DNA from: Amycolatopsis sp. GM8
GTDB lineage: Bacteria; Actinomycetota; Actinomycetes; Mycobacteriales; Pseudonocardiaceae
Assembly: GCF_021653975.1 (NCBI RefSeq)
Contig: NZ_JAJKFK010000005.1
Span: 309,696-373,695 of the forward strand
Direction of reading: 5' to 3'
Length of the DNA: 64,000 bases
How positions within the stretch are numbered: the first letter of the stretch is position 1; every line of letters begins with the position of its first letter. The position numbers and the translations under genes are program-made. The notes under the pieces are model-generated. The model saw nothing but the letters and a program-made list of their open reading frames with translations. It was not told the DNA's origin and made no database searches. Below are positions 110 to 48,370 of this stretch, piece after piece.

Positions 110-1107
110 TGGGCCGCTTGGAAGCGGGCGGTGAAGTCCTTACGGCCTTGCTCGGTCAGGCCGCCGTGCAGGCGGAGGCGGGCCATCCCGCCGTCGGGGT
201 AGATGTCCAGCCGGAGGTAGCGCAGCTCCGGGACCTCCACCAGCGGGAAGCGGTGCCGGGTGTCCGGTTGCAGGCGGGTGCGGGGCAGCACCTCGAACCA
301 CGAATCGCCGTCGACGGAACCCGACAACGCGGCCCAGCCGGGCGCGTTTCCCTTGAAATGACTGGTATCCAGCTCAGCCAGGCGCGGCACGCCCGCACCG
401 GCGAGCGCGATCACTACCCAGTCGTTGGCGTCGTCCCGCCGCCGCGCGGTTTCCCAGCCCTCCCCCATCACCGAGGCGAACCCGGGCGAGATGAGGTTGC
501 TCGGCGACGAGTAGAACATGTTGCTCGCCTCGGTTACCCTCGCGCCGTTCTCCAGCGCCGCGAGGTCCAGCGCGCCGAGATCGAGCAGCCGCGGGTCGGC
601 CACCGGCGCGCCGTGCACCCGGAACCGGGCGACCCCGCCGTCGGGATAGATCGTCAACCGGGCATGCGTCCAGCGCCGTGCCGACGACACCTCGAAGAAG
701 TTCTCGGCATCGCCCCGCAACGGGGACTTGTCCACGAGCGTCGTCCAGTCCAATGAGGACAGTTCGACCGGGCTCGGATATCCCTCAACGGCAACAGCTT
801 CGACCGAGGCGAACGGCGGGTAGTTCCCGGTGAAGAACGCCGTGTCGACGATGACGCCCGACACCACACCGGGCAGGCCGAGCCGGACGATCGCCTGGTC
901 GGCTCCCGGCTCGCGGCGGCGGCGCGTCTCCCAGCCGTCGTAAATCTGCCCCTTGTGCCCGAAGCTCCACGGCTGGAACTCGGGCTTCCCGGGCTTGACC
1001 AGGTTTTCCCGCTCGGCGAACAGCTCGTCGTTGGCCCACACCACACCGCCGCCGACGCGCCGCGACGCGAGATCCGGCTCGTTCGTCCACACTGGACGGT
1101 CGTTCAC
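100..1107 (-). CDS. alc: Allantoicase
   Basis: A 335-residue protein that hydrolyses allantoate to ureidoglycolate and urea in the cytoplasm. It shows the two tandem allantoicase repeats expected of the family: one half contains [17 protein letters not shown] and the second repeats the pattern with [17 protein letters not shown], each followed by a DTAFFTGN or DTSHFKGN block and ending in LTIYPDGG or LDIYPDGG. Length is normal for the family. The start is GTG, overlapping the allB stop in a GTGA, so it is translationally coupled as the last gene of hyi-glxR-gcl-allB-alc. The ureidoglycolate lyase needed next is not in the window. Confidence 0.95.
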
Positions 1108-2429
1108 GAAATCCCTCCTCGTACCAGTAACTCACCTTCGGCCACCGACCCGATCTCCTTGCCCCGCAACCAGGTCGACCGGACGACCCCGGTCAGCGCC
1201 CGGCCGTGATAGGCGCTGACCGGGTTGCGGTGCCGCAGGTTCGCAACATCCACCACGAACTGCTCGTCCGGCGCGAACACGCAGAAGTCCGCGTCCGCAC
1301 CGATCTCGATCCGCCCCTTGCGCGCCAGCCCGGCCTGCGCGGCCGGCCGCTCCGCCATCCACCGGACCACGTCGGCCAGGGTGAACCCGCGGTCTCGCGC
1401 GCCCGTCCACACCGCGGGCAGCCCGACCTGCAGGCTCGCGATCCCGCCCCACGCCTCGCCGAAATCGCCGATGTCGAACCGTTTCAGCTCCGGCGTGCAC
1501 GGCGAATGGTCACTGACCACGAAGTCGATCGTGCCGTCGGCCAGGCCCTGCCACAGCAGTTCCCGATTGCGCGACTCACGGATCGGCGGGCAGCACTTGA
1601 ACTGCGTGGCGCCGTCGGCGATCTCCTCGGCACTGAACGTCAGGTAGTGCGGGCAGGTCTCGACGGTGAGCGCCACCCCCTCGCGCCGCGCCGCGCCGAT
1701 CATCGCGAGAGCGTCCGAAGAGGACAGATGCAGGATGTGCACGCGCGCCCCGGTCCGCCGCGCCAGCTCGATCACCCGGGCGATCGCGACGTTCTCCGCC
1801 TCGCGCGGCCGCGAGTTCAGGAAGTCGGCGTAGTGCCCGCCGTGCGCCTGCGGGGCTTGCTCGATCGTGTCGGGGTCCTCGGCGTGCACGATCATCATCG
1901 CGCCGAGATCGGCCAGGATCCGCAGGTCCGCTTCCAGCTCCCCGGTCTCCAGCGGCGGGAACTCATCCACGCCCGAGTGCAGCAGGAAGCACTTGAACCC
2001 GAACACCCCGGACTCGTGCAGGGCACCCAAATCCGCGCTGTTGCCGGGGATCGCCCCACCCCAGAACCCGACGTCGACGTGCACGCGCCCGGCCGCGGTC
2101 TTGCGCTTGAGCTCCAGCGCGGCGACGTCGACCGTCGGCGGCAGGCTGTTCAGCGGCATGTCGACGATCGTCGTGATGCCACCGGCCGCCGCCGCGCGGG
2201 TCGCCGTCTCGAAGCCCTCCCAGTCGCTGCGCCCGGGATCGTTGACGTGGACATGGGTGTCGACGAGCCCCGGCAACAGGACCTCGTCGTCGCCCAGTTC
2301 GACGACGCGCGGACCGACCAGCTCGCCGTAGGCCGCGACGGCCACGATGCGACCGCCATCCACACCGACGTCGAACGACCCCTCGCCCGCGGACGTCACC
2401 GCACGCCGAGTCCGGAACACCAGCTCCAC
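1104..2429 (-). CDS. allB: Allantoinase
   Basis: A cytoplasmic metal-dependent amidohydrolase of 441 residues that opens the allantoin ring to give allantoate. The metal-binding HVHVNDPG motif lies near residue 60, the carbamylated-lysine region reads [10 protein letters not shown], and VSDHSPC supplies the late metal Asp; these are diagnostic of allantoinase and dihydropyrimidinase relatives. [21 protein letters not shown] favours allantoinase over dihydroorotase. The start is GTG with a strong AGGAGG upstream. The gene lies 26 bp downstream of gcl and overlaps alc by 4 bp. Confidence 0.95.
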
Positions 2430-2455
2430 GAGAACCTCCTCCTACCCCGGCGGAC

Positions 2456-4150: not shown

Positions 4151-4152
4151 GG

Positions 4153-5016
4153 CTACTCCCGTCCGGAGAGTTGGGCGACGAGCTTCAGCAGCGCGCCGTG
4201 GTCGAGGCCGCCGTGGCCCTGGGCCTTGAGCGACGCCATGAGCTGCGCGACCACCGCGCCGAGTGGGATCACGACGCCGGCCTCGCGCGCCGCGGCTTGC
4301 GCGATGCCGAGGTCCTTGTGGTGCAGCTCGACCCGGAAGCCCGGGGTGAACTCGCGCTTGACCATCGCGGCGGCCTTGCGGTCGAGGATGCGGTTGCCGG
4401 CGAGGCCACCGGCGAGCACCTTGATCGCCGCGTCGGTGTCGACGTCGTGCGCTTCGAGGAACACCAGTGACTCGGCGACCAGTTCGATGGTGCCGGCGAC
4501 GATCAGCTGGTTGGCGGCCTTGACGGTCTGCCCGGCGCCCGCGGCGCCGACGTGCATGATCGTGCTGCCGACCGCTTCGAGCACGTCGCGCGCGGCCGCG
4601 AAGTCCGCGTCCGCGCCGCCGACCATGATCGACAAGGTGCCTTCGATCGCGCCCTGCTCGCCGCCGGACACCGGCGCGTCGAGCGCCCGGACGCGCCCGG
4701 CGATCGCGCGCGAGACGTCGGGGCGGATGGTGCTGCAGTCGATCAGCAGCGCGCCTTCCTTCGCGTGCGCGAGCACGCCGGCCTCGCCGAGGACGACCGC
4801 TTCGACGTCGGGCGAGTCGGGCAGCATCGTGACCACGATGTCCGCGTCGCGCACCGCCTCGGCGACACCGGCCGCGCCGTGGCCACCCGCCGCCACAAGC
4901 TTGTCCACTTTGGACTGTGAGCGGTTGTAGCCGGTGACCTCGAACCCGGCCTTGACCAGGTTGGCCGCCATCGGCCCGCCCATGATGCCCAGCCCGATGA
5001 ACCCGATCTTCGTCAT
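4153..5016 (-). CDS. glxR: 2-hydroxy-3-oxopropionate (tartronate semialdehyde) reductase
   Basis: A 287-residue beta-hydroxyacid dehydrogenase that reduces tartronate semialdehyde, the Gcl product, to glycerate with NAD(P)H. The N-terminal Rossmann motif is GLGIMGGPMAANL, the substrate loop is PVSGGEQGAIEGTLSIMVGG, and the catalytic lysine lies in GQTVKAANQLIVA. Length is normal. The chosen start (MTKIGFIGLG) overlaps the hyi stop in an ATGA. It could be labelled garR or glxR; the allantoin/glyoxylate neighbours favour glxR. Confidence 0.93.
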   Translation of the reverse strand: MTKIGFIGLGIMGGPMAANLVKAGFEVTGYNRSQSKVDKLVAAGGHGAAGVAEAVRDADIVVTMLPDSPDVEAVVLGEAGVLAHAKEGALLIDCSTIRPDVSRAIAGRVRALDAPVSGGEQGAIEGTLSIMVGGADADFAAARDVLEAVGSTIMHVGAAGAGQTVKAANQLIVAGTIELVAESLVFLEAHDVDTDAAIKVLAGGLAGNRILDRKAAAMVKREFTPGFRVELHHKDLGIAQAAAREAGVVIPLGAVVAQLMASLKAQGHGGLDHGALLKLVAQLSGRE

Positions 5017-5798: not shown

Positions 5799-5807
5799 GG
5801 CCTCTTC

Positions 5808-5844: not shown

Positions 5845-5879
5845 TAGCTCCGTAGCGGCTCGGGCGTCAACGGGATACC

Positions 5880-6356: not shown

Positions 6357-6387
6357 CTTCAACAAACTGTTGAAGGAGGATCGTGCC

Positions 6388-6855
6388 GTGGCATTCGACC
6401 TGGCCGGCTTCAACTCCGCGCCGCCCTCCCGGCTCCAGGCGGACCTCGCGGGCTGTCTCGACGTGCCGCGCTGGGTCTCTTCCGTGCTGGCCGGGCGGCC
6501 GTATGCCGACGTCGGCGCGTTGCGGTCGCGCGCGGAGATCGCGCTGGAGCCCGCCGAGATCCATCGTGCGATGGCGGCGCATCCCCGGATAGGCGAGAAG
6601 GCGGCCGGCGTGTCGAAGGCCGAGCAGTCCGGTGTGGACAGTGCGGCCGCGGAGAAGTTCCGCGCGGCCAACGTCGAGTACGAGGAGCGGTTCGGGCACG
6701 TGTTCCTGGTGTGCGCGAGCGGTCGCAGCGGCGAGGAGCTGCTGGCCAACCTGCGTGAACGGATGGGCAACGACCCGGACACCGAACTCGCCGTCGCCGG
6801 GCGGGAACTGGTCAAGATCGCCTTGCTGCGACTGGGAAAGCTGGTGACCGCGTGA
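6388..6855 (+). CDS. uraD: 2-oxo-4-hydroxy-4-carboxy-5-ureidoimidazoline (OHCU) decarboxylase
   Basis: Converts OHCU, the product of 5-hydroxyisourate hydrolase, stereospecifically to S-allantoin. The 155-residue protein has the catalytic-histidine motif HPRIGE at residues 65-70 and the conserved block EYEERFGHVFLVCASGRS near residue 100. The GTG start at 6388 follows a perfect AAGGAGGA with 7-base spacing, which decides it over longer readings. The stop overlaps the GTG of the next gene, so both are co-translated. Confidence 0.93.
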   Translation: MAFDLAGFNSAPPSRLQADLAGCLDVPRWVSSVLAGRPYADVGALRSRAEIALEPAEIHRAMAAHPRIGEKAAGVSKAEQSGVDSAAAEKFRAANVEYEERFGHVFLVCASGRSGEELLANLRERMGNDPDTELAVAGRELVKIALLRLGKLVTA

Positions 6856-9096: not shown

Positions 9097-9681
9097 GTGG
9101 GCAACACCAAAGAGCGCATCATGAACGCGAGCGCCGAACTGTTCCGCCGCAACGGCTACACCGGGACCGGGCTCAAGCAGATCGTCACCGCGGCGGGCGC
9201 GCCGTTCGGCTCGCTGTACCACTTCTTCCCCGGCGGCAAGGAACAACTGGGCGCGGAGGTCATCCGTGAGTCGGGCCTGCTCTACGGCCAGCTGTTCGAC
9301 ATCTTCATCACCCCCGCGGACGACCCGGTGAGCGGTATCGAGTCCGCCTTCGCCGGAGCCGCGGTCACGCTCAAGGAAACCGACTACGCCGACGCCTGCC
9401 CGATCGCGACCGTCGCGCTCGAGGTCGCGAGCACCAGCGAACCGTTGCGCCTGGCCACCGCGGAGGTGTTCAACGCCTGGATCGACAAGGGAACCGAGAC
9501 GTTCGCCCGGTTCGGACTGTCCGAAAAGGACGCGCGCAAGCTCACCATCGCGGTGATCACCAGCCTGGAGGGCGCGTTCGTGCTCAGCCGTTCGCTGCGC
9601 GACGTCGAGCCGCTCGCCGTCGCCGGGGAAACCGCCGCCACGATGGCGCGTCAGCTCATGAAGGAACCCGCGGCGAAGTAG
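9097..9681 (+). CDS. TetR/AcrR-family repressor (LmrA/YxaF-like)
   Basis: A 194-residue regulator. The N-terminal HTH spans about residues 10-50 (ERIMNASAELFRRNGY, GLKQIVTAAGAPFGSLYHFF, PGGKEQLGAEVI). The C-terminal part, with DACPIATVALEVAS, is typical of the LmrA/YxaF subgroup. It starts with GTG and is divergent from the alpha/beta-hydrolase, which it probably represses through the 9059 palindrome. Its 3' end overlaps the convergent permease gene by 31 bp. The inducer is unknown. Confidence 0.88.
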   Translation: MGNTKERIMNASAELFRRNGYTGTGLKQIVTAAGAPFGSLYHFFPGGKEQLGAEVIRESGLLYGQLFDIFITPADDPVSGIESAFAGAAVTLKETDYADACPIATVALEVASTSEPLRLATAEVFNAWIDKGTETFARFGLSEKDARKLTIAVITSLEGAFVLSRSLRDVEPLAVAGETAATMARQLMKEPAAK

Positions 9682-11066
9682 ACCGCGAAGATCGCGGCCA
9701 GCACCCCGAGCAGCCAGCCGACCTCGCGGACCCGGCCCTTCGCGATCTTGATCAGCACGTAGGCGATCAGCCCGGCGCCGATGCCGTTGGTGATCGAGTA
9801 GGTGAACGGGATGACCGCCGCGATCAGGAACACCGGGATCGCGACATCGATGTCCTGCCAAGGGATCCGGCGTGCCTGCGCCATCATCATGCCGCCGATG
9901 ACGACGAGCGCGGGCGCGGCGGCCTGCGCGGGCACGATCGCGGCGATGGGGGTCAGGAACAGGGTGACGGTGAACAGCCCGCCGGTCACCACGCTCGCGA
10001 GACCCGTGCGCGCCCCCTCCCCCACGCCCGCCGCGGACTCCAGGAACACCGTGTTCGGCGCGGAACCGCTGAGCCCGCCGGCGAGCGCGCCGAAGCCGTC
10101 GACCAGCAGGATCCGGCCCATGCCCTCGACGCGCCCGTCGCGGACGAGCCCGGCTTCCTCGGACACGCTCGTGATCGTGCCCATGGCGTCGAAGAACCCG
10201 GACAGCACCAGGGTGAACAGGAAGACGCACGCGGTCACCGGTCCCGCCGAGGCGAAGCCGCCGAACAGGTCGATATGCCCGAGCAGGCTGAAATCCGGGG
10301 TCGCGACGACATGCGTCGGTACCGTCGGTTTTACCAGGCCCCACCCGGACGGGTGGAACGCGGCGTTCACGATGATCGCGAGCACGGTGGCGACCACGAT
10401 GCTGATCAGCACCGCGCCGGGTGTCTTGCGCGACACGAGCACGATCATCAGCAGCAGGCCGACGCAGAAGACGAGGATCGGCCAGCCGGTGAGATGCCCG
10501 TCGAGGCCCATCCGCACCGGCACCGTCGAGTCCGCCGAGTCCGGGGTCCGCGTCACGAACCCGGCGCTGACCAGGCCGACGAGCGCGATGTAGAGGCCGA
10601 TGCCGACGGTGATCGCGGTCTTGAGCGCCATCGGGATCGCGTTGATGATCCGCTCGCGCACCCCGGACACCGCCATCAGCACGATGCACACACCTTCGAG
10701 CACGACGAGCCCGAAGGCCTGCGCCCAGGTCATCTCCGGCGCCATCTGGAACGCGACGACGCCGTTGATGCCCAGCCCCGCGGCGAGCGCGAGCGGTGCG
10801 CGGCCGAACAGTCCCATGAGGACGGTGGTGACACCCGCCGCGAGCGCGGTCGCGGTGGTGACCTGCTCGGTGCTGAGCTTCGCGCCGGTGATGTCGGCGG
10901 ACGCGCCGAGGATCAACGGGTTCAGCAGCACGATGTAGCACATCGCGACGAATGTGGTGATGCCGCCGCGGATCTCCCGCCCGACACTGCTGCCACGGCG
11001 CGAGATGCCGAAGTAGGAGTCCACAAAGGACTTTCGGGGGGTGGGCCTGGTGCGCAGCTGGATCAT
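9651..11066 (-). CDS. Purine permease, AzgA/NCS2 family
   Basis: A 471-residue membrane transporter with about 12-13 predicted hydrophobic segments. GGITTFVAMCYIVLLNP at the start and ALAAGLGINGVVAFQ, DGFGALAGGLSGSAPNTVFLESAAGVGEGARTG-type loops (split here by wording) are typical of AzgA-like adenine/guanine/hypoxanthine importers. It sits downstream of xanthine dehydrogenase, separated by repeats at 11105-11236, and probably brings in the purine substrate by proton symport. Its stop lies inside the convergent TetR gene. Confidence 0.9.
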   Translation of the reverse strand: MIQLRTRPTPRKSFVDSYFGISRRGSSVGREIRGGITTFVAMCYIVLLNPLILGASADITGAKLSTEQVTTATALAAGVTTVLMGLFGRAPLALAAGLGINGVVAFQMAPEMTWAQAFGLVVLEGVCIVLMAVSGVRERIINAIPMALKTAITVGIGLYIALVGLVSAGFVTRTPDSADSTVPVRMGLDGHLTGWPILVFCVGLLLMIVLVSRKTPGAVLISIVVATVLAIIVNAAFHPSGWGLVKPTVPTHVVATPDFSLLGHIDLFGGFASAGPVTACVFLFTLVLSGFFDAMGTITSVSEEAGLVRDGRVEGMGRILLVDGFGALAGGLSGSAPNTVFLESAAGVGEGARTGLASVVTGGLFTVTLFLTPIAAIVPAQAAAPALVVIGGMMMAQARRIPWQDIDVAIPVFLIAAVIPFTYSITNGIGAGLIAYVLIKIAKGRVREVGWLLGVLAAIFAVYFAAGSFMS

Positions 11067-13419: not shown

Positions 13420-14747
13420 CGCAGCCTCCTTGCGGCGCTGGCGAGCTCACCGGCGACCACAGACTCGTCAGCCGTGCGCAGTTCTCCCTCGGCCACAATG
13501 GTTTCCCCGCCGACCATGACCAGCTTCAGCGGTGGGGTGGCGCCGAGCACCAGCGCCGCGACCGGATCCTCGATCCCCGCATAGAGCAGACCGCCCAGGT
13601 CCCACACGGCCAGGTCCGCGAGCTTCCCCGGCTCCAGCGAGCCCAGTTCCCCTTCCCTGCCAAGGCATCGGGCACCGCCCATCGTGCCCATGTGCAACGC
13701 TTCCCGGACCGTCAGCGCCGTCGGGCCGCCGCGTTGCCGCGCCTGCAGCAACGCCTGGTGCAACTCCTCGCCCAGCCCGCCGGACTCGTTCGACGCCGCG
13801 CCGTCGACACCGAGGCCGACCGGGGCGCCCGCGTCGAGCAGGTCACGCACGGGCGCGATTCCGGTGCCCAGCCGCCCGTTCGACGTCGGGCAGTGCGCGG
13901 CGCCGGTGCCGGTCGCGCCGAAACGGCGGACGGCCGCGGGCGCCAGGTGCACCGAGTGCGCCATCCAGACGTCCGCGCCGAGCCAGCCGACCTTGTCGGC
14001 GTACTCGGCCGGGGTGCAGCCGAACTCGGCCAGGCACTGCTGTTCCTCGTCGAGGGTTTCGGCGAGGTGCGTCTGCAGCCGGACTCCCTTGCGGCGAGCC
14101 AGTTCCGCGGCGCCCGTCATGAGCTTTTCGGTCACCGAGAACGGCGAGCACGGGCCGGCCGCGATCCGGATCCGCGCGTTTTCCGAGGCGTCGTGATACG
14201 CGTCGATGGCCTGCTCGGTGCCGAGCAGCGCGGCCTCGGTGGTCTCGACCAGGTTGTCCGGTGGCAGTCCGCCGTCGGACACGCCGCGGTCCATCGAACC
14301 GCGCACGATGTGGGCGCGCACGCCGATCCGGCCGGCGGCCTCGACCAGCGCCGCGACCTGGTCGCCGCCCTCGCGCGGGAACACGTAGTGGTGGTCGGCG
14401 ACGGTCGTGCAGCCCGTCAGCGCGAGCCGGGCGAGCCCCGCGCTCGCGGCCGCGTGCGTGATCCGCGCGTCGAGCCTGCCCCAGATCGGGTACAGCTCGA
14501 CGAGCCACTGGAACAGCGTCGAGTCGGCGGCGAGACCGCGGGTCGCCCACTGGTACAGGTGGTGATGGGTGTTCACCAGGCCCGGCGTGATCAGGCAGCC
14601 GCGCGCGTCGATCTCGACGTCGCCGGTGGCCGCCCCGGAGCCGACCGCGACGATTCGCTCGTCCTCGATCACCACGTGCCCGTCGCGGTACTCGGTGCCC
14701 TCGGCGTCGACGGTCGCGATCGCCGCGTTGTTCAGGACCGTTCTCAT
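13416..14747 (-). CDS. Amidohydrolase: 8-oxoguanine/guanine deaminase
   Basis: A 443-residue zinc amidohydrolase placed between the Fe-S and Mo subunits of xanthine dehydrogenase. NTHHHLYQWATRG provides the first metal histidines; HLAETLDEE, HSVHL and VDGAASNE give the remaining catalytic groups. The HHHLYQ form is what is known from bacterial 8-oxoguanine deaminases and the related chlorohydrolases; classical guanine deaminases read slightly differently. Deamination of guanine would give xanthine, and of 8-oxoguanine would give urate, so either fits the operon. Both neighbours overlap by 4 bp. Which substrate dominates cannot be read from sequence. Confidence 0.88.
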   Translation of the reverse strand: MRTVLNNAAIATVDAEGTEYRDGHVVIEDERIVAVGSGAATGDVEIDARGCLITPGLVNTHHHLYQWATRGLAADSTLFQWLVELYPIWGRLDARITHAAASAGLARLALTGCTTVADHHYVFPREGGDQVAALVEAAGRIGVRAHIVRGSMDRGVSDGGLPPDNLVETTEAALLGTEQAIDAYHDASENARIRIAAGPCSPFSVTEKLMTGAAELARRKGVRLQTHLAETLDEEQQCLAEFGCTPAEYADKVGWLGADVWMAHSVHLAPAAVRRFGATGTGAAHCPTSNGRLGTGIAPVRDLLDAGAPVGLGVDGAASNESGGLGEELHQALLQARQRGGPTALTVREALHMGTMGGARCLGREGELGSLEPGKLADLAVWDLGGLLYAGIEDPVAALVLGATPPLKLVMVGGETIVAEGELRTADESVVAGELASAARRLR

Positions 14748-15202
14748 CGTGTGCTCGCCATCCGCACCGCGTCCAGGATCTTCTCGTATCCCGTGCAGCG
14801 GCACAGGTTTCCGGCGAGCGCCTCGCGGATCTCCTCGTCGCTCGGATCCGGTACCCGGTTCAGCAGGTCGTGCGCCGCGACCACCAGTCCCGGCGTGCAG
14901 AACCCGCACTGCACCGCGCCAGCGTCCACAAAGGACTGTTGCACCGGGTCGAGTCGCTCGCCGTCGGCCAGGCCCTCGACGGTGCGCACCTCCCGGCCCT
15001 CGGCCTGCCCGGCCGCGACCAGGCACGAGCACGCGGGCACGTCGTCGAGATACACCGTGCAGGACCCGCATTCCCCTTGCTCGCAAGCATTCTTCGAGCC
15101 CGGGAGACCGAGCCGCTCGCGCAGCACGTACAGCAGGCTCTCGCCTTCCCACACGTCGTCGGCCTGTTTGGCCTCGCCGTTCACGGTCACGTTCAGGCGC
15201 AT
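14744..15202 (-). CDS. pucE: Xanthine dehydrogenase, 2Fe-2S subunit
   Basis: A 152-residue electron-transfer subunit. The plant-type 2Fe-2S cluster ligands are in CEQGECGSCTVYLDD (about residues 40-55) and the second, alpha-helical cluster in CGFCTPG and CRCTGY. It passes electrons from the Mo centre to FAD. The ATG start (MRLNVTVNG) follows GGGAGGG and lies 10 bp inside the FAD-subunit 3' end. All eight cluster cysteines appear present. Confidence 0.95.
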   Translation of the reverse strand: MRLNVTVNGEAKQADDVWEGESLLYVLRERLGLPGSKNACEQGECGSCTVYLDDVPACSCLVAAGQAEGREVRTVEGLADGERLDPVQQSFVDAGAVQCGFCTPGLVVAAHDLLNRVPDPSDEEIREALAGNLCRCTGYEKILDAVRMASTR

Positions 15203-28534: not shown

Positions 28535-29134
28535 ATGGACGCGAAGATCCTGCTCAGCAGCGCCCAGGTGTGCGCCGAGTTCCTCTCCGGGCACCTGGGC
28601 GGTGACTGGGCGGCGAAGGTGCCCGACCTGGAGCAGACCGTCGCCGAGGTCGTCGCGCACATCAGTGACTGTGTGCACTGGTACGCCTACGATCTGGCCG
28701 CCGGGCCGACCGAGCTGTCCACAATGGACATCAGGACGAAGCCGGAGTCGGCGCCGGCCGAGCTGCTCGTCACGCTCGGTACCACCGCGAAAGTGCTGGC
28801 CGCGGTCCTGCACAGCTCGGCACCGGACGCCCGGGGCTACCATCCGGCCGGGCTCGCCGACGTGTCGGGTTACGCCGCGATGGCGTGCGACGAGCTGCTG
28901 GTACACACCTACGACGCCGCGCGCGGCCTGGGCGCCGACTTCGAGGCGCCGCCCCGGCTCGCCGCCGCGACGCTGTACCGGCTGTTCCCGTGGTCGCCCA
29001 CCGACACCGAGCCGTGGCCGACGCTGTTGTGGGCCAACGGCCGCGCGCCGCTCGGCGACCTGCCGAGGCTGAACAAGTGGCAGTGGCACTGCGCGCCGCT
29101 GTCCGAATGGGATGGCAGCGCGCCGATCAGCTAG
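28535..29134 (+). CDS. Maleylpyruvate-isomerase N-terminal (DinB-like) domain protein
   Basis: A 199-residue member of the mycothiol-dependent/DinB-like helical bundle group. SDCVHWYAYDLAAG and GYAAMACDELLVHTYDAARGLG place two histidines in the usual metal-binding region. Its ATG follows the symporter stop with no gap, so it belongs to the anmK operon although no functional link is known. Its 3' end overlaps the convergent desaturase gene by 8 bp. Specific reaction unknown. Confidence 0.8.
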   Translation: MDAKILLSSAQVCAEFLSGHLGGDWAAKVPDLEQTVAEVVAHISDCVHWYAYDLAAGPTELSTMDIRTKPESAPAELLVTLGTTAKVLAAVLHSSAPDARGYHPAGLADVSGYAAMACDELLVHTYDAARGLGADFEAPPRLAAATLYRLFPWSPTDTEPWPTLLWANGRAPLGDLPRLNKWQWHCAPLSEWDGSAPIS

Positions 29135-38510: not shown

Positions 38511-39210
38511 AGAGTTCGAAGCGGTAGCCCATGCCCGGTTCGGTGAGCAGGTGCTGGGGGCGCGACGGTTCCCGTTCCAGTTTCCGGCGCAGCTGGGCCA
38601 GGTACACCCGCAGGTAGTGGGTCTCGTTCTCGTACGTCGGGCCCCACACCTCGCGCAGCAGCTGCTTCTGCGAAACCAGCCGCCCCCGGTTGCGCACCAG
38701 CAGTTCCAGCACACCCCACTCGGTCTTCGTCAGGTGCACCTCGTGGCCGTCGCGCTCGGCCTTCTTCGCCGCCAGGTCGATGGTGAACGCATCGGTCGTC
38801 ACGACCGCGTCCACACCGTCCGAAGTGGACACCGAGGACCGGCGGACGGCAGCGCGCAGCCGGGCCAGCAGCTCGTCCATACCGAACGGTTTGGTCACGT
38901 AGTCGTCCGCACCCGCGTCGAGCGCCTGCACCTTGTCCGGTGAGTCGCTGCGCGCGGACAGCACGATGATCGGCACCGTCGTCCAGCCGCGCAGGCCCGC
39001 GATGACCTCGTTCCCGTCCATGTCGGGCAATCCGAGATCCAGCACCACCACATCGGGCTTCGTATCCGCCACCGCCCGCAGCGCCGCCGCGCCGTCGTGT
39101 GCCGTGATCACCTTGTAGCCGCGCGCGGACAGGTTGATCCGCAACGCTCGCACGATCTGCGGCTCGTCGTCCACCACGAGAACCGTCGCCAGTGTCGTGG
39201 ATCCTGTCAT
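38509..39210 (-). CDS. kdpE: Response regulator KdpE
   Basis: A 233-residue OmpR-family regulator: the receiver has VLVVDDEP and the phosphorylated Asp in DVVVLDLGLPDMDG, with KPFGMDELLARLRAA. The winged-helix DNA-binding domain (about 130-230) contains LTKTEWGVLELLVRN and GMGYRF. It activates kdp under K+ limitation or high salt. It is the last gene of the operon, with an ATGA overlap to kdpD. Confidence 0.95.
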   Translation of the reverse strand: MTGSTTLATVLVVDDEPQIVRALRINLSARGYKVITAHDGAAALRAVADTKPDVVVLDLGLPDMDGNEVIAGLRGWTTVPIIVLSARSDSPDKVQALDAGADDYVTKPFGMDELLARLRAAVRRSSVSTSDGVDAVVTTDAFTIDLAAKKAERDGHEVHLTKTEWGVLELLVRNRGRLVSQKQLLREVWGPTYENETHYLRVYLAQLRRKLEREPSRPQHLLTEPGMGYRFEL

Positions 39211-41759
39211 CGCACTCGCTCCTCGAGATCCACCAGCGGCACCACCTGAGGCGCCGCGTAGGCCCGCAGCGAGATCACCACCGTGAGCCCGCCGCCGGGC
39301 GTGTCCTCCGCCCTGATCGTGCCGCCCATCGCCTCCGTGAACCCCTTCGCCACGGAGAGGCCGAGCCCGATCCCGGGCGTGTTGTCGCGGTCCCCGAGCC
39401 GCTGGAACGGCGCGAAAGCCGAGTCGGTCGCACCTTTCTTCAGCCCACGCCCGTGATCGACGATACGCAGCTCCACGTACTCCGCATGGGTACTGCCCCG
39501 CGCGGACACCGGTTCGGCCCCCTTGCCGTGCCGCAGCGCGTTGTCGATCACGTTCGCCACCACGCGTTCGAGCAGCCCGGGATCGGCGAGCACCGCGGGC
39601 AGCCGCTCGTCCACCGCGACCACCACCGAACCCGAGTTGTCCACATTGGACAGCGCGTGTGCCACCACCTCGTCGTACCCGACGGGCCGCAGCTGTGGCC
39701 GCACCGCACCGGTCGCCAGCCGCGAGGAGTCGAGCAGGTTGTCCACCAGCCCGGCCAGGCGGTCGGTCGATTCCTCAGCCGTGGCAAGGAGTTCGTCGGT
39801 GTCCTCCGGGGACAGCTCGATGTCCTGCGCCCGCAGGCTGCCGATCGAGGCCTTGATCGACGTGAGCGGCGTCCGCAGGTCGTGCCCCAGCGCGGACAGC
39901 AGCGCCGTCCGCAACTCGGTCGCCTCGGCCTTCCGCTCGGCTTTCGCGGTCGCCGCGGCCATCCGCTGCTGCCGCAGGGCGAGCAGCGCCTGCCCGGCCG
40001 CAGCCTCCAGCACCCGCCGGTCCTCCGCCGGCAACGCCCGGCCGCGCAACGTCAAGTGCACGTCCGGCGTCACGGGGACGTCGACGTCGGCCTCGTCGGG
40101 ATCGCCGCACGGGTTCGGCCCGCACTCCTCGACCCGGCGCCACTCGCCGTTCTGCTTCTCGACGAGACTTACCGCCTCCAGGCCGAAGTTCTCGCGCACC
40201 TTCTCCAGCAACCGCGGCAGTGGCGCGGTATTCGTGAGCACCGTGCGCGCATACGACGCCAGCAAGGACGCCTCCGTGCGCGCATACGATGCCTGCTTCG
40301 CCAGCCGGGCGGCGGTGTCCACGACGAGTGCGACGAGTGTCGCGACCACGATCATCGCGACCAGCGTCACCACGTTGCGCGGCGAATGCACGGACAGCGA
40401 ATAGAGCGGTTCGGTGAAGAAGAAGTTGAGCAGCCCGGCCGAAAGGATCGCCGTCAGGAGCGCCGGGCCGAGCCCGCCGACGAGCGCGACCAGGACCGCC
40501 ACGAGGAAGTAGTCGACGATGTCGGTCGAATAGTCGAGCTGCCCGCGCAGCCCGACCCCGATCGCGGTCGCCAGCCCGGGCAGCAGGATCGACAGCACCC
40601 AGCCCCACATCTGCCGGGACCCGGCGATCGAGCTGTGCGGCACCAGCTTCCGCAGCCGGCCGCCGGCTTCCGCGTGCGTCACCATGTGCACGTCGATGGG
40701 GCCCGAGTGCTGCACCACGGTCGCGCCGATGCCCTCGTCGAACAGCCGCGCCAGGCGCGACCGGCGCGAAGTGCCGAGCACCAGCTGGGTCGCGTTGACC
40801 CCGCGCGCGAAGTCCAGCAAAGCCGTCGGCACGTCGTCGCCGACGACGGTGTGGAAGGTGGCGCCGAGCTGGTCGGTGAGCTTGCGGTAGCGCCCGATCT
40901 CGGTCGGCCCGAGCCCGGACAGCCCGTCGCCGCGCATCACGTGCACCACCAGCAGTTCCGCCCCGGCCCGCGCGGCGATACGGCTGGCGCGCCGGATCAG
41001 CGTCTCACTCTCCGGCCCGGCCGTGATCGACACGACGACCCGTTCGCGGGTCTCCCACGTGTCGGTGATCTGTTGCTGCTGCCGGTACCGCTGCAGCGCG
41101 ACGTCCACCTGGTCGGCCACCCACAGCAACGCCAGCTCGCGCAGCGCCGTCAGGTTCCCGGGGCGGAAGTAGTTGCCGAGCGCCGCGTCGATCCGTTCGG
41201 CGGGATAGACGTTGCCGTGCGCGAGGCGGCGCCGCAGCGCCTCCGGGGTGATGTCCACCAGCTCCACCTGCTCGGCCTTGCGCACCATCTCGTCCGGCAC
41301 CGTCTCCTGCTGCGGCACGCCGGTGATCTTCTCCACCACGTCGTTGAGGCTCTGCAGATGCTGGACGTTCACCGTGGACAGCACGTCGATCCCGGCGTCC
41401 AGCAGCTCCAGCACGTCCTGCCAGCGCTTTTCGTTGCGGGAGCCGGGAACGTTCGTGTGTGCCAGCTCGTCGACGACGGCCACCTCGGGCTTCCGCGTCA
41501 GGATCGCGTCCACATCCATCTCGGTGAACTCGTGACCGCGGTACTCGTCGTGCCGGCGCGGCACGATCTCGAGCCCCGTGATCAGATCCGCGGTCTTCTT
41601 GCGGCCGTGCGTCTCGACCAGGCCGACGACCACGTCCGTGCCACGCTCCTTGCGGCGCCAGGCCTCGCCGAGCATGGCGAAGGTCTTCCCCACGCCAGGA
41701 GCCGCGCCGAGGTAGATGCGAAGCTCACCCCGGCGCGGCCTGTCCTGCTGTTCGTCCAC
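39207..41759 (-). CDS. kdpD: Sensor kinase KdpD
   Basis: An 850-residue membrane sensor. The N-terminal KdpD domain has Walker A GAAPGVGKT (18-26) and ETHGRKKTADL. A USP-like domain (SITAGPESETLIRRA) follows, then four membrane segments (about 390-490), GAF-like and HATPase regions; the phosphorylation site is SALGHDLRTPLTSIKAS. It detects low K+ and phosphorylates KdpE. GTG start, 4 bp after kdpC. Confidence 0.95.
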   Translation of the reverse strand: MDEQQDRPRRGELRIYLGAAPGVGKTFAMLGEAWRRKERGTDVVVGLVETHGRKKTADLITGLEIVPRRHDEYRGHEFTEMDVDAILTRKPEVAVVDELAHTNVPGSRNEKRWQDVLELLDAGIDVLSTVNVQHLQSLNDVVEKITGVPQQETVPDEMVRKAEQVELVDITPEALRRRLAHGNVYPAERIDAALGNYFRPGNLTALRELALLWVADQVDVALQRYRQQQQITDTWETRERVVVSITAGPESETLIRRASRIAARAGAELLVVHVMRGDGLSGLGPTEIGRYRKLTDQLGATFHTVVGDDVPTALLDFARGVNATQLVLGTSRRSRLARLFDEGIGATVVQHSGPIDVHMVTHAEAGGRLRKLVPHSSIAGSRQMWGWVLSILLPGLATAIGVGLRGQLDYSTDIVDYFLVAVLVALVGGLGPALLTAILSAGLLNFFFTEPLYSLSVHSPRNVVTLVAMIVVATLVALVVDTAARLAKQASYARTEASLLASYARTVLTNTAPLPRLLEKVRENFGLEAVSLVEKQNGEWRRVEECGPNPCGDPDEADVDVPVTPDVHLTLRGRALPAEDRRVLEAAAGQALLALRQQRMAAATAKAERKAEATELRTALLSALGHDLRTPLTSIKASIGSLRAQDIELSPEDTDELLATAEESTDRLAGLVDNLLDSSRLATGAVRPQLRPVGYDEVVAHALSNVDNSGSVVVAVDERLPAVLADPGLLERVVANVIDNALRHGKGAEPVSARGSTHAEYVELRIVDHGRGLKKGATDSAFAPFQRLGDRDNTPGIGLGLSVAKGFTEAMGGTIRAEDTPGGGLTVVISLRAYAAPQVVPLVDLEERVR

Positions 41760-41763
41760 TACG

Positions 41764-42366: not shown

Positions 42367-42373
42367 GACCAGC

Positions 42374-44425
42374 TCACATTCCCGGGATGAGGCGGACCAG
42401 CAGGTCCACCAGCCAGATGCCGAGGAACGGCGTGATGATCCCGCCCACGCCGTAGATCAGCAGGTTTCGCCGCAGCAACGCCGAAGCGGTCGAGGGCCGG
42501 TACCGCACGCCGCGCAGCGCCAGCGGGATCAGGGCCACGATGATCAGCGCGTTGAAGATCACCGCGGACAGGATCGCCGACTGCGGCGAGTGCAGGTGCG
42601 TGATGTTCAGCCCGCCCAGCTGCGGATAGATCGACGCGAACATCGCCGGCAGGATCGCGAAATACTTCGCGAGGTCGTTGGCGATGCTGAACGTGGTCAG
42701 CGCGCCGCGGGTGATCAGCAACTGCTTGCCGATCTCCACGATCTCGATCAGCTTCGTCGGGTTCGAGTCGAGATCGACCATGTTCCCGGCTTCCTTGGCC
42801 GCCGAGGTGCCGGTGTTCATCGCGACCCCCACGTCGGACGCGGCGAGCGCCGGCGCGTCGTTGGTGCCGTCACCGGTCATCGCGACGAGCCGGCCGCCCT
42901 CCTGCTCCTTGTGGATCAGGGCCATCTTGTCCTCGGGCTTGGCCTCGGCGAGATAGTCGTCGACACCGGCGTCCGCCGCGATGGCCTTCGCGGTGAGCGG
43001 GTTGTCACCCGTGATCATCACCGTCCGGATGCCCATCGTGCGCAGCTCGGCGAACCGTTCGCGCATCCCGGGCTTCACCACGTCGGACAGCCGGATCACG
43101 CCGCGCACGACGGCGCGCCCGCCGACGATCTCGGCCACCGCGAGCGGGGTGCCACCCTGCTGGCCGATCTCGTCGGCCACCCGCTCGGTCTGGTCGGGGA
43201 ACTCCCCGCCGTGCTCGCGCACCCAGGTCCGCACCGAGCCGGTCGCGCCCTTGCGGATCCGCCGGTCGCCGAGGTCGATCCCGCTCATCCGGGTCTGCGC
43301 GGTGAACGGCACGAACTCGCCACCCGGATTCCCGTCGGCCGGGCCGGTCAGCTCGATGATGCTGCGCCCCTCGGGGGTCCCGTCCGCGAGGCTGGACAGC
43401 CGGGCCGCCTCGACCAGTTCGTCCATTGTGGACGACCCGACCGGGATCAGCTCGGTCGCCTTGCGGTTGCCGAAGGTGATCGTGCCGGTCTTGTCCAGCA
43501 GCAGGGTCGACACGTCGCCCGCCGCCTCGACCGCGCGACCGGAGGTGGCGAGCACGTTGCGCTGCACCAGCCGGTCCATGCCCGCGATGCCGATCGCCGA
43601 CAGCAGCGCGCCGATCGTCGTCGGTATCAGGCAGACCAGCAGTGCGGTCAGCACGACCACCGACTGCTCGCTGCCGGAGTACTTCGCCATCGGCTGCAGC
43701 GCGACGACCGCGATCAGGAAGATGATCGTCAGCACCGCGAGCAGGATGGTCAGCGCGATCTCGTTCGGCGTCTTCTGCCGGGAAGCGCCTTCCACCAACG
43801 CGATCATGCGGTCCACAAAGGACTCACCGGGCTTGGTGGTGATCTTCACGACGATCCGGTCGGACAGCACCGTGGTGCCGCCGGTGACCGCCGACCGGTC
43901 GCCGCCGGACTCCCGGATCACCGGGGCCGACTCGCCCGTGATGGCGGACTCGTCGACCGTCGCGATGCCCTCGACGACGTCGCCGTCGCCGGGGATCAGC
44001 TCGCCCGCCTCGACGACCACGAGATCGCCGACGCGCAGTTCCACCCCGGGGACCTGCTCCTCGCCGTGCTCGGTGAGCCGGCGCGCGATGGTCTCCTTCT
44101 TGGTGCGGCGCAAGGATTCCGCCTGCGCCTTGCCACGGCCTTCGGCCACCGCCTCGGCCAGGTTCGCGAACACCACGGTGAACCACAGCCACAGCGCGAT
44201 GCCGATGGTGAACACGCCGGGGTTGCCGATCGCGAACACCGTGGTCAGCACCGAGCCGACCCACACCACGAACATGACCGGGTTGCGGACCTGATGCCGC
44301 GGGTCGAGCTTGCGCAGCGCGTCCGGCAGCGACGTCAGCAGCTGGCGCGGGCTGAACGCGCCCGCCCCGACCCGGTGCTGTTCGACCGGGGTTTCGGTCA
44401 CTGGTTTCTCCTGGGTGACGGTCAT
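42374..44425 (-). CDS. kdpB: Potassium-transporting P-type ATPase subunit KdpB
   Basis: A 683-residue P-type ATPase that hydrolyses ATP for K+ import through KdpA. DKTGT (311-315) carries the phosphorylated Asp; TGES (163-166) is the actuator loop and [11 protein letters not shown] the hinge motif. The start MTVTQEKP overlaps the kdpA stop (ATGA), while the frame is open far upstream without family support. Two GTCC-N5-GGAC copies lie in the gene. Confidence 0.96.
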
Positions 44426-46083
44426 GCGAGACCCTCCGCGAAGGGGCCGAGCGCGAGCGCGGGAATGAACGTCAGCGCCGCGACGAGGATGATGGTGCCG
44501 GCCAGCATCGAACCGAAGAGCGGGCCCGTGGTGGGCAGCGTCCCCGAGGTCTCGGGGACCTTCTTCTGCTTGGCCAGCGCGCCGGCGAGACAGAGCGTGG
44601 CCAGGATCGGCACGAACCGGCCGATCAGCATCGCCACGCCCAGCGAGGACTGGAACCAGTCGCTGGTCACGGTGATGCCGGCGAACGCGCTGCCGTTGTT
44701 GTTCGAGGCCGAGGCATAGGCGTAGAGCAGTTCGGACAGCCCGTGCGCGCCGCTGTTGTTGAGCGCCGACGTGGTGTCCGGCAACAGCAAGGCCGCACCG
44801 GCGCCGAGCAGCACCACGGTCGGCATCGCGAGGATCGAGATCGCGGCCGTGGTCACCTCGGTCTTGCCGAGCTTCTTGCCCAGGTACTCGGGCGTGCGGC
44901 CGACCATCAGGCCGGCCAGGAACATCGCGATGACCGCGACCACGAGGATGCCGTACAGGCCGGTGCCGACCCCGCCCGGCGCGACTTCGCCGAGCAGCAT
45001 GTTCAGCAGCGGACCACCGCCGCCGAGGCCGGAGAAGCTGTCGTGCCACGAGTTCACCGCGCCGGTCGAGGTGCCGGTGGTGCTCGTCGCGAAGATCGAG
45101 GACGCGGAGATGCCGAAGCGTTGTTCCTTGCCTTCGAGATTCGCGCCGGCGAGCAGTGCGGCGGGACCGTTCGGGTGTGTCTCGGCGAGCCAGACCCACG
45201 CCAGCACGGCGGCCCAGATGCCACCCATCACCGAAACCAGGACGTAGCCCTGCTTGCGGTTGCCGACCATGGTGCCGAAGGTGCGGGTCAGCGCGACCGG
45301 GACGACCAGCAGCAGGAAGATCTCGATGAGGTCGGTCCACGCGGTCGGGTTCTCGAACGGGTGCGCGGAGTTGGCGTTGAAGATGCCGCCGCCGTTGGTG
45401 CCGAGTTCCTTGATGGCCTCCTGGCTCGCCGTCGGCGCCAGCGCGATCGTGTTCTGCGCGCCGCCGGGGCCCGTCACGTCCACACCGGACTTGAGGCTCT
45501 GCGTGACGCCCATCGCGATCAGCACGATCGCGAACACGACCGAGATCGGCAGCAGGATGCGGACGGCACCGCGGGTCAGGTCGACCCAGAAGTTGCCGAG
45601 CCGGTCGGTCCGCCGCCGCACGAACCCGCGCACGAGCGCGATCGCCACCGCGAGCCCGACCGCCGCCGACAGGAAGTTCTGCACGGTCAGGCCGACCATC
45701 TGGACGGTGTCGCCCATGGTGGTTTCCGGCACGTAGGACTGCCAGTTCGTGTTCGTGACGAAGCTGACGGCCGTGTTGAAGGCGACGGCGGGGCTCACCG
45801 CGCCGCGGCCGAAGCTCAGCGGCAGGAACGCCTGCAGGCGCTGCAGCAGGTAGAGGAACACGATCGAGACGAACGAGAAGCCCAGTACGCCCATGGCGTA
45901 GGTGGGCCAGCGCTGCTCGGCGTCCGGCTTGACCCGGAACAGCTTGTACAGCCCCCGTTCGACGGCCAGGTGCTTCTCACTGGTGAACACCCTGGCCATG
46001 TAGTCGCCGAGCGGTTTGTAGACCACCGCGAGGGCGACGAGGAGTATGCCGACCTGGACCAGGCCGGCAGCGACGTCGCTCAT
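44422..46083 (-). CDS. kdpA: Potassium-transporting ATPase subunit KdpA
   Basis: The 553-residue K+-binding channel-like subunit with about 10 membrane segments. [15 protein letters not shown] resembles a selectivity-filter loop, and [21 protein letters not shown] another pore loop. It starts at ATG directly after the kdpF stop with no gap. It couples to KdpB for high-affinity import. Confidence 0.96.
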
Positions 46084-46265: not shown

Positions 46266-46531
46266 TTCGCACCTTTCATAGCGGGTCACCCGACTGGCGA
46301 CCGCTCCGGCAACACTGTGCGGCCGCCGAGCACGCGGATGACCTGCTCTGACGGCCTCTTGATGCGTACTTCCAGCGCCTTTACGCGTTCTTGACGCCCG
46401 GTGAGACCGGACACACCGAGCGTAATGGGACCCGGCAGAACCGGCATTTCGCGCAGACAGCGAACGCTCAGTTGTGTTACCACTGCGTTACGCATACTTG
46501 TAGTCGCTAAGCAAATGGGAGGCAGTGACGT
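46266..46531. promoter_or_regulatory. Divergent kdp/asnB intergenic region
   Basis: This 266-bp gap holds the promoters of kdp (minus) and asnB (plus). On the kdp side TCTTGATGC (46357) and TCTTGACGC (46389) are direct repeats 32 bp apart, candidates for KdpE binding. On the asnB side lie the palindrome TGCGTTACGCA (46484-46494) and a CATACT -10-like hexamer at 46493. A weak TTGTGT is 15 bp upstream of it. No RNA switch was recognised. Confidence 0.4.
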
Positions 46532-48370
46532 ATGTGCGGTATCACCGGCTGGGTTTCCTTCGACGCCGATCTCACCCAGCAGCGCAGGACCCTCGACGCG
46601 ATGACGGAGACGATGTCCTGCCGCGGTCCGGACGACGAGGGCACCTGGATCGCGCCACACGCCGCGCTGGGACACCGGCGGCTGGCGATCATCGACCTGC
46701 CCGGCGGCCGCCAGCCGATGTCGCTGCGCACGCCCACCGGTGAGATCGCGCTGGTCTACAGCGGGGAGACCTACAACTTCACCGAACTGCGCGAGCAGCT
46801 CGCCGGCCTCGGCCACAAGTTCGAGACCGACAGCGACACCGAGGTCGTGCTGCACGGCTATCTCGAATGGGGCGAGGCCCTCGCCGACCATCTCAACGGC
46901 ATGTACGCCTTCGCGATCTGGGACGCCCGCGACGAGAAGCTCGTGATGATCCGCGACCGGATGGGCATCAAGCCGTTCTACTACTACCCCACCCGCGACG
47001 GCGTGCTGTTCGGCTCCGAACCCAAGGCGATCCTCGCGAACCCGCTGGCCCGCCGGGTGGTCGACACCGAAGGCCTGCGCGAGCTGTTCACGTTCGTCAA
47101 GACGCCGGGCTGGGCGATGTGGCAGGGTATGCGCGAGGTCGAGCCGGGCACCATCGTCCGGGTCGACTCCTCCGGCACGCACACGCGCACCTACTGGAAG
47201 CTCGACGCGGTCCCGCACACCGACGACCAGGAGACCACCGTCGCCCGGGTGCGCGAGCTGATGACCGACATCGTGCACCGGCAACTCGTCGCCGACGTGC
47301 CGCGCTGCGTGCTGCTGTCCGGCGGCCTCGATTCCAGCGCCGTCACCGGTCTCGCCGCCGCGAGGCTGGCTGAACGGGGCGAACAACTGCGCACGTTCTC
47401 GGTCGATTTCTTCGGGCAGGAGGAAAACTTCCAGCCCGACGAGATGCGCGGCACCCCGGATTCGCCGTTCATCCGCGACGTCGCGAAGCTCGTCGGCTCG
47501 AAGCACGAGGACGTCGTGCTCGACCCGGCCGCGCTCAGCGATCCCGAGGTGCGCCGCGCGGTCATCACCGCCCGCGACATCCCGGCCGGCCTCGGCGACA
47601 TGGACACCTCGTTGTACCTGCTGTTCAAGGCGATCCGGGGCGAGTCGACGGTCGCGTTGTCGGGCGAGTCGGCCGACGAGGTGTTCGGCGGCTACCGCTG
47701 GTTCCACGACGAGACGGCCCGCAACGCCGACACGTTCCCGTGGCTGGCGTACCAGACTGGTCTGAACCAGCGGCCGGAGACCGTGCGCGAGGACCTGTGG
47801 CAGACGCTTTCCGTGGAGGACTATGTCGCCGACCAGTACCGGACCGCCGTGGCGCGGGTCGACCACATCGACGGCGCGAGCGAGTTCGAGCGGCGCATGC
47901 GGACGGTGTGCCACCTGCACCTGACCCGGTTCGTGCGGATGCTGCTGGACCGCAAGGACCGTGCGTCGATGGCCGTCGGTCTCGAGGTACGCGTGCCGTT
48001 CTGCGACCACCGGCTCGTGGAGTACGTCTACAACACCCCGTGGTCGTTGAAGTCGTTCGACGGCAGGGAAAAGAGCCTGCTGCGGCACGCCACGAAGCAT
48101 GTCCTGCCACCGTCCGTTGTGGACCGCGTGAAGAGCCCGTATCCGTCCACTCAGGACCCCGGCTACGCGGCGGCGCTGCAGCAGCAGGCGAAGGAAGTGC
48201 TCGCCGAGCGGGACAACCCGGTGTTCGCCGTGATGGACCAGAACTGGCTGACCTCTGCAGTGGCGGCCGACCCGGGTTCGATCGACCAGTTCACCCGGCA
48301 CGGCCTCGACCGGGTGCTCGATCTGCACCACTGGTTCGACATCTACCGGCCGGAGCTGCAGCTGGGGTGA
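46532..48370 (+). CDS. asnB: Asparagine synthase (glutamine-hydrolysing)
   Basis: A 612-residue AsnB. The N-terminal nucleophile Cys2 is in MCGITGW; the glutaminase domain continues to about residue 210 (CRGPDDEGTW, YNFTELREQL, YAFAIWD). The synthase domain has the PP-loop LLSGGLDSS and SGESADEVFGGY. It makes asparagine from aspartate, glutamine and ATP. RBS GGGAGG precedes the ATG. It is not obviously part of a pathway cluster. Confidence 0.95.
   Translation: MCGITGWVSFDADLTQQRRTLDAMTETMSCRGPDDEGTWIAPHAALGHRRLAIIDLPGGRQPMSLRTPTGEIALVYSGETYNFTELREQLAGLGHKFETDSDTEVVLHGYLEWGEALADHLNGMYAFAIWDARDEKLVMIRDRMGIKPFYYYPTRDGVLFGSEPKAILANPLARRVVDTEGLRELFTFVKTPGWAMWQGMREVEPGTIVRVDSSGTHTRTYWKLDAVPHTDDQETTVARVRELMTDIVHRQLVADVPRCVLLSGGLDSSAVTGLAAARLAERGEQLRTFSVDFFGQEENFQPDEMRGTPDSPFIRDVAKLVGSKHEDVVLDPAALSDPEVRRAVITARDIPAGLGDMDTSLYLLFKAIRGESTVALSGESADEVFGGYRWFHDETARNADTFPWLAYQTGLNQRPETVREDLWQTLSVEDYVADQYRTAVARVDHIDGASEFERRMRTVCHLHLTRFVRMLLDRKDRASMAVGLEVRVPFCDHRLVEYVYNTPWSLKSFDGREKSLLRHATKHVLPPSVVDRVKSPYPSTQDPGYAAALQQQAKEVLAERDNPVFAVMDQNWLTSAVAADPGSIDQFTRHGLDRVLDLHHWFDIYRPELQLG

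Follow-up and report, generated by a model that had tools for sequence, protein, structure and literature searches.

A GTCC-N5-GGAC palindrome overlaid on the genes of Amycolatopsis and related actinomycetes, possibly the site of a chromosome-organising DNA-binding protein

We describe a palindrome, GTCC-N5-GGAC, in a 64,000-nt stretch of Amycolatopsis sp. GM8 DNA (contig NZ_JAJKFK010000005.1, positions 309,696 to 373,695; the whole stretch is referred to below as the window), where it is strongly over-represented, as it is throughout the genome. The motif is a real genome-wide feature, centred on A or T, written with synonymous codons that the genome otherwise avoids, and retained between relatives at synonymous positions. 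Our preferred reading, held tentatively and with slightly less than even confidence, is that the copies are selected sites of a putative, genome-wide, chromosome-organising DNA-binding protein. No description was found among the papers listed by open-licence searches on the motif and on iterated palindromes or methylation in actinobacteria; GTCCACTGTGGAC occurs in three papers, which are on other subjects to judge by their titles and the openings of their abstracts.

Over-representation and definition of the motif

The window contains 23 copies of GTCC-N5-GGAC, compared with 3.14 expected from 100 dinucleotide shuffles (standard deviation 1.69, maximum 8). An earlier reading of the window from its letters alone (the sequence-only reading) had listed 20 copies and estimated that about 3 would be expected; the shuffles bear out the estimate, all 20 copies are where they were reported, and three more lie at 1713, 10811 and 39801. 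The last 15.8 kb of the window (48158-64000) has no copy, and similar-sized gaps exist elsewhere in the genome. Over the 8.16-Mb genome (22 contigs), there are 1,784 copies, compared with 113 of a reversed control pattern. Queried with one protein of the window, the matches kept have Amycolatopsis sacchari, A. acididurans and A. bartoniae as the closest named relatives, in line with a place in Pseudonocardiaceae. The spacing is specific: in 853 kb of the genome, N5 alone is raised, with 161 sites compared with 9-48 at each of the 20 other spacings between 0 and 20.

The centre of the spacer is A or T (hereafter A/T-centred) in 22 of the 23 window sites, the exception being that at 39801. Genes were called with a crude caller of our own, which found 803 genes in the 853 kb; over the stretches analysed it called 81-91% of sequence coding. 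In the predicted coding subset of approximately 724 kb (loci L001-L040 plus the window), 113 sites have A or T at position 7, compared with 9.7 after synonymous shuffling, whereas sites without a central A/T are not enriched (34 compared with 35). Requiring in addition a purine (R) at position 5 and a pyrimidine (Y) at position 9 leaves 72 sites, compared with 3.9 in the shuffles. The refined motif, GTCC-R-N-W-N-Y-GGAC (W, A or T), has 902 copies in the genome and 7 when reversed, and the consensus GTCCACWGTGGAC has 157 and 0. Single changes to the half-sites bring the loose form to 0.4-2.2 times expectation.

Codon choice and reading frame

Shuffling synonymous codons within genes, which preserves both the proteins and the codon usage, gave a mean of 46 coding sites (maximum 66 in 60 shuffles), compared with 147 observed. 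The middle codons of the motif end in A or T in 89 of the 112 phase-2 sites in the 853 kb, six times more often than the 14.7 expected from the amino acids. Codon shuffling and rare-codon frequency were the two tests set beforehand in the sequence-only reading, which had remarked on the rare middle codons and had suggested a nucleic-acid-level signal lying over the coding sequence; both came out in favour of that suggestion.

The copies had also been described as lying in genes and, except for that at 1085, locked to a single phase, that of a Ser-x-x-Asp (SxxD) peptide. The SxxD phase holds for 21 of the 23 window sites; the copy at 10811 is in phase 0, and that at 1085 straddles a predicted gene start. 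Over the 853 kb, phases 2, 0 and 1 account for 112, 32 and 3 sites, with another 14 intergenic or at a gene edge, and synonymous shuffling gave 36, 8 and 1.5 sites in the three phases. In the frame xxG-TCC-NNW-NNG-GAC, the bases G1, C4, W7, G10 and C13 all fall at wobble positions, so that synonymous change can make a site wherever SxxD has suitable neighbours. Positions at which the peptide permits an A/T-centred site were counted over stretches of four genomes; the site is present at 261 of 1529 such positions in frame 2, 42 of 285 in frame 0 and 12 of 65 in frame 1, that is, at 15-19% in each frame (8.7 to 26% in single genomes, for which counts are small). We conclude that the phase-lock exists and is largely made by peptide availability, since permissive positions are used at near-equal rates in the three frames; the frame itself is not its cause.

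Conservation between relatives

An alignment of GM8 genes with 400 kb of A. bartoniae sequence covered 247 genes at a mean identity of 84%. All eight fixed bases are kept at 39 of 68 GM8 sites and at 39 of 53 A. bartoniae sites. The corresponding figures for control spacings, pooled over 0 and 2-12 codons, are 23 of 116 and 23 of 113. Where the amino acid is conserved, the A/T ending of a codon is kept in 37 of 48 cases at sites, compared with 1482 of 5719 (26%) elsewhere. TCC is retained in 46 of 51 cases inside sites and in 467 of 770 outside, and in five cases the central W is maintained across a swap between ACT and ACA. Such conservation at synonymous positions agrees with an overlaid signal.

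Eight window sites were compared in 11-14 of 29 named loci. At one position, where the GM8 peptide is SSTMD, the motif persists through GSTSD, SSTLD, QSTMD, GSTVD and ESTPD, and is missing in 8 of 13 relatives; at 43421 and 39801 it survives residue changes. At a position in a putative pyrR gene, GTCCACTTCGGAC is found in six of nine motif-rich genomes, drawn from three families, and is missing in all six motif-poor or background genomes; in motif-poor genome G036, the same SEVD peptide is coded there by other codons.

In contig C18, A/T-centred sites number 247 per Mb in genes that have an A. bartoniae orthologue in the alignment and 158 per Mb in the others. Contig C1 is poorer in sites (37 in 400 kb) than C18 (88 in 453 kb).

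Placement on the chromosome

The sites are spread evenly along the chromosome sampled for this. In a complete chromosome of the same genus (G542, 8.18 Mb), 91 A/T-centred sites fall in 40 evenly spaced stretches at 0-7 each (mean 2.3, variance 2.4), with four scattered stretches having none. In Kutzneria, the 50 strict sites listed, out of 134, extend over the first 4.84 Mb of the 11.6. No macrodomain distribution was seen in these two genomes.

Only 21 of 339 A/T-centred sites in the stretches of four genomes are non-coding, and placement is not biased towards promoters. Densities per Mb in non-coding and coding DNA are 76 and 159 in GM8, 54 and 122 in G542, and 0 and 143 in G153; the 21 non-coding sites exceed the 3.4 expected from a Markov model. 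Inspection by eye of fourteen GM8 sites in non-coding DNA or at gene edges revealed no obvious pattern of a regulator with its sites. Among 13 genomes of the genus there are 74 close pairs of copies; the 20 that were fetched, mostly pairs 0-1 base apart, include no autoregulated promoter, 17 lying inside genes and three at unrelated loci. One arrangement, of two copies 1 base apart (27 bp), recurs in five genomes of the genus (L161, L163, L166, L168 and L171) near the end of a gene recognised by eye as that of a GatA-like amidase.

Lineage distribution

The refined motif was counted in 150 genomes from 46 genera of the family Pseudonocardiaceae. Among 46 genus representatives, its density has a median of 41 per Mb, with extremes of 4.2 and 205, and exceeds 15 per Mb in 39; it rises with genome size (Spearman 0.68, uncorrected for kinship). 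Counts are 957 in Kutzneria, 807 in Kibdelosporangium, 784 in A. bartoniae, 259 in Saccharothrix, 184 in Haloechinothrix and 30 in Pseudonocardia oceani, with 2-28 copies of the reversed pattern across these named genomes. The motif is at background in Pseudonocardia, in which the loci searched (130 kb only) show no replacement palindrome, the top scores being GC-rich palindromes without such geometry.

Outside the family, 294 genomes sampled in the class have counts of 0-51. Strict counts in the order are 237, 195 and 23 in family f5, 74 and 37 in family f12 and, weakly, 8 in family f14; within a single genus of family f9, genome G170 has 114 strict sites and G157 has one. The remaining genomes sampled in the order mostly have 0-3. 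In G153, a genome from family f5, the motif is the same and likewise A/T-centred, at 51 coding sites compared with 3.2 after shuffling. G170 and G157 form a natural pair in which to look for the determinant of the motif; the 3.2-kb bldD region that was compared is 87-89% identical between them over two long pieces.

Spacer symmetry and the proposed reader

Read on the coding strand, base preferences in the spacer mirror each other closely at positions 5 and 9 and more loosely at 6 and 8. Over the 339 sites, both pairs of positions depart from independence (chi-square 23.1 and 31.8), and the departure is not towards pairing: at 5/9, A-T was seen 93 times compared with 101.5 expected, and G-C 17 times compared with 23.9. 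Twelve compensatory double changes in the half-sites are mostly not enriched, on small counts, and show no consistent rise; two of them, on counts large enough to use, are up 2.0- and 2.5-fold. A spacer that is nearly mirror-symmetric, with no covariation of the RNA type, points to a dimer on double-stranded DNA. The sequence-only reading had allowed for a signal in either DNA or mRNA; DNA is the likelier of the two.

We infer that the motif is read by a protein, with the fold and role that follow. GTCC-R-N-W-N-Y-GGAC would be the double-stranded binding site of a putative two-fold-symmetric, sequence-specific DNA-binding protein of these actinomycetes, and the bending of the centre, between the two half-sites read by the dimer, would matter. 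In layout, with 4-bp half-sites about a 5-bp spacer centred on W, it matches the box that BldD-type dimers recognise. Selection would maintain approximately 100-200 A/T-centred sites per Mb, chromosome-wide, in motif-rich genomes. We take the putative reader for a nucleoid-associated factor that would organise the chromosome, since hundreds of evenly spread, mostly intragenic sites fit such a factor better than they fit a regulator of promoters; many chromosome-wide sites, coding DNA included, are expected of nucleoid-associated proteins, and this is what we found. The sites would be mostly intragenic because synonymous codons build them cheaply there.

BldD was considered as the reader and rejected. 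Each of 16 genomes has one copy scoring over the cut-off, and the DNA-binding domain is alike in motif-rich and motif-poor genomes, being identical in the same-genus pair G170 and G157.

Several observations weigh against a selected protein site. With BldD present and alike in rich and poor genomes, the geometry of the motif points to no protein. Single half-site changes to the refined form range from 0 to 8.6 times expectation, with at most 14 sites each, so that some are raised. The excess over codon-usage expectation is 20.9-fold in frame 2 compared with 5.2 and 5.5 in frames 0 and 1, although a larger excess is expected where the rare wobble bases are those selected. In the A. bartoniae comparison, each control spacing is a small sample (3-15), and for GAC, retention at sites (45 of 49) is no higher than elsewhere (3179 of 3303). 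The pyrR site is missing from three of the motif-rich genomes, G008, G170 and G173. Families seldom share a site: over few orthologues, sharing was seen for 1 of 3 and 1 of 11, the pyrR site in both cases. Genome G260 has a non-coding density of 163 per Mb, close to its coding value of 182, and, given the crude gene caller, missed genes may hold some of the sites counted as non-coding.

Alternative explanations

The strongest alternative, which we consider unlikely though by no means negligible, is a repeat of the HIP1 type: a methyltransferase would mark the palindrome, and biased repair would drive near-matches towards it. HIP1 in cyanobacteria is likewise an over-represented palindrome, accompanied by matching methyltransferases. 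Among 33 chosen genomes, PF02384 was found in 20 of 22 motif-rich and 6 of 11 motif-poor genomes, PF01555 in 16 of 22 and 4 of 11, and PF00145 in 13 of 22 and 4 of 11, associations that favour methylation over a binding protein; the motif-rich genomes in this comparison are also larger. None of these three families occurs in every motif-rich genome, in a search that did not extend to PF02086, PF07669 or further enzymes. All three are absent from genome G170 (114 strict sites, completeness listed as 100%), which weakens a methylation origin; G173 has just two pieces of PF01555 below the cut-off, and GM8 itself is without PF01555. A methyltransferase is not expected to require a central A/T, and a neutral drive should peak in non-coding DNA, whereas density is lower there in three of four genomes. 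A protein of approximately 600 amino acids, part of which (roughly positions 30-215) matches N6_Mtase, recurs in nine motif-rich Pseudonocardiaceae genomes and not in GM8.

It is less probable still that the motif serves as a landmark in recombination, in the uptake of DNA or in the transfer of chromosomes, akin to Chi or to uptake sequences. Its high copy number, mainly genic location, strict core and genome-wide spread would suit such a role. However, Chi and uptake sequences are asymmetric, whereas this site is palindromic with near-symmetric preferences.

An mRNA hairpin with a 4-bp stem and a 5-nt loop, which a nuclease or an RNA-binding protein would recognise, is very improbable. The sites are mainly coding and their halves are able to pair; against this stand the near mirror symmetry of the spacer, the dependence at 5/9 and 6/8 in a direction other than pairing, the lack of enrichment of most compensatory double changes, and the raised frequency in non-coding DNA too.

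The sequence-only reading had offered, as a weaker alternative, a relation to half of the DnaA box. The consensus begins GTCCAC, which overlaps the TTGTCCACA box, but the actinobacterial DnaA box has a TT flank before GTCCACA and the sites do not: T makes up 0.19 and 0.32 of columns -1 and 0, directly before GTCC. Both inverted halves are needed, at N5 alone, and spacers starting with GAA or TTT occur as well. We regard a DnaA-related origin as highly implausible.

Finally, the idea that the motif simply falls out of protein composition and codon usage, as SxxD written in preferred codons, can be dismissed almost entirely: SxxD is somewhat common (830 occurrences compared with 639-740 for other SxkD spacings) and codon usage favours its phase, but the synonymous shuffles, which keep both proteins and codon usage, refute it, the A/T-ending codons that the genome avoids are conserved at sites, and motif-poor G036 writes SEVD in the putative pyrR with other codons.

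Sites in the window

The 23 sites are listed below; no strand is assigned to them, and all are A/T-centred unless marked. Fractions of relatives refer to those comparable at each locus.

748 to 760, GTCCAATGAGGAC: allantoicase gene (minus strand), in SxxD phase
1085 to 1097, GTCCACACTGGAC: junction of the allantoicase gene start and allantoinase
1713 to 1725, GTCCGAAGAGGAC: allantoinase gene; newly listed
4903 to 4915, GTCCACTTTGGAC: predicted gene on the minus strand (4153-5016), upstream of glyoxylate carboligase
6627 to 6639, GTCCGGTGTGGAC: predicted gene 6388-6855, an uncertain gene call
9519 to 9531, GTCCGAAAAGGAC: TetR-type regulator gene
10811 to 10823, GTCCCATGAGGAC, phase 0: Xan_ur_permease-family gene; newly listed
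11019 to 11031, GTCCACAAAGGAC: Xan_ur_permease-family gene
14924 to 14936, GTCCACAAAGGAC: predicted gene 14744-15202
17581 to 17593, GTCCACAGCGGAC: PucR-type regulator gene
19067 to 19079, GTCCAAAATGGAC: luciferase-like F420 oxidoreductase gene
20114 to 20126, GTCCACAATGGAC: DUF6986 gene
20690 to 20702, GTCCACTTCGGAC: DUF6986 gene
28717 to 28729, GTCCACAATGGAC: MDMPI_N-domain gene
32435 to 32447, GTCCAAATCGGAC: SMC gene
38818 to 38830, GTCCGAAGTGGAC: gene for a response regulator, next to kdpD; 4 of 14 relatives have it A/T-centred
39639 to 39651, GTCCACATTGGAC: kdpD; kept in 5 of 14 relatives (3 A/T-centred, 2 not)
39801 to 39813, GTCCTCCGGGGAC, no central A/T: kdpD; kept in 5 of 14 relatives; newly listed
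43421 to 43433, GTCCATTGTGGAC: gene for a P-type ATPase (kdpB, judging by position); 5 of 13 relatives have it A/T-centred, despite changes in the residues next to it
43811 to 43823, GTCCACAAAGGAC: the same P-type ATPase gene; 10 of 13 relatives (4 A/T-centred, 6 not)
45478 to 45490, GTCCACACCGGAC: kdpA; kept in 1 of 13 relatives
48112 to 48124, GTCCGTTGTGGAC: asparagine synthase gene; 4 of 11 relatives (2 A/T-centred)
48145 to 48157, GTCCACTCAGGAC: asparagine synthase gene; 8 of 11 relatives (6 A/T-centred)

At 39801, four of the five relatives carrying the motif have it A/T-centred, by way of four different middle codons. The part of the window from 100 to 20962 is a purine/allantoin breakdown cluster, with genes for allantoicase, allantoinase, glyoxylate carboligase, a hydroxypyruvate isomerase-like protein, Xan_ur_permease, 8-oxoguanine deaminase and a PucR-type regulator.

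Other palindromes were also seen. In the coding subset of GM8, GTTG-N5-CAAC occurs 30 times compared with 4.6 in synonymous shuffles and peaks at spacing 5 (36 compared with 2-12 at the other spacings from 0 to 14), with no obvious preference for a central A/T; it is possibly a second palindrome of this kind. CTCG-N1-CGAG occurs 248 times there compared with 101 after shuffling. In 14 Prauserella loci (among L049-L120), CTGCGCAG is found 41 times compared with 6.7 and GAATATTC 10 times compared with 0.0, figures that orthologous loci may inflate.

Discussion

In kind, the motif is closest to HIP1, the highly iterated palindrome GCGATCGC of cyanobacteria, for which a methyltransferase-driven origin is the model (PMC4390886). 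Both are short palindromes, strongly over-represented genome-wide and variable between lineages. They differ in motif and phylum, the one described here being 13 bp long with a 5-bp A/T-centred spacer and found in actinomycetes, and in that no methyltransferase is common to all motif-rich genomes among the three families searched.

Two actinobacterial proteins invite comparison. Gbn, the GATC-binding nucleoid-associated protein of Streptomyces, has 2,825 and 2,919 binding regions, and so resembles the present case in having thousands of short sequence-specific sites genome-wide. Gbn is a known protein that recognises GATCWT and was mapped by chromatin immunoprecipitation (ChIP), whereas the motif here is revealed by evolutionary constraint, and the two share no sequence. 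The BldD box, TNAC-N5-GTNA, is also 13 bp long, with 4-bp half-sites about a 5-bp spacer; BldD controls approximately 167 transcription units (PMC4151990). Its half-site is TNAC rather than GTCC, BldD sites lie in promoters, towards which ours are not biased, and BldD is equally present where the motif is rare.

Short palindromes read by chromosome-organising dimers are familiar from MatP/matS, SlmA and Noc, which have tens of sites in defined regions of the chromosome. Those described here number in the hundreds and are evenly spread.

On the reading that we prefer, an undescribed and abundant binder, putatively present in Pseudonocardiaceae and a few related lineages, would impose the palindrome on approximately one in six permissive positions, reshaping codon choice and adding Ser-x-x-Asp; we hold this to be plausible, falling just short of an even chance. 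The finding bears on the puzzle of very abundant genomic palindromes such as HIP1. The motif occurs in antibiotic-producing soil bacteria, with measurable constraint at synonymous positions, and genera differ sharply in its density, as do even two species belonging to a single genus (G170 and G157). If the reading is true, synonymous codons in these genomes would not be neutral, which would matter for codon optimisation and gene design in Amycolatopsis.

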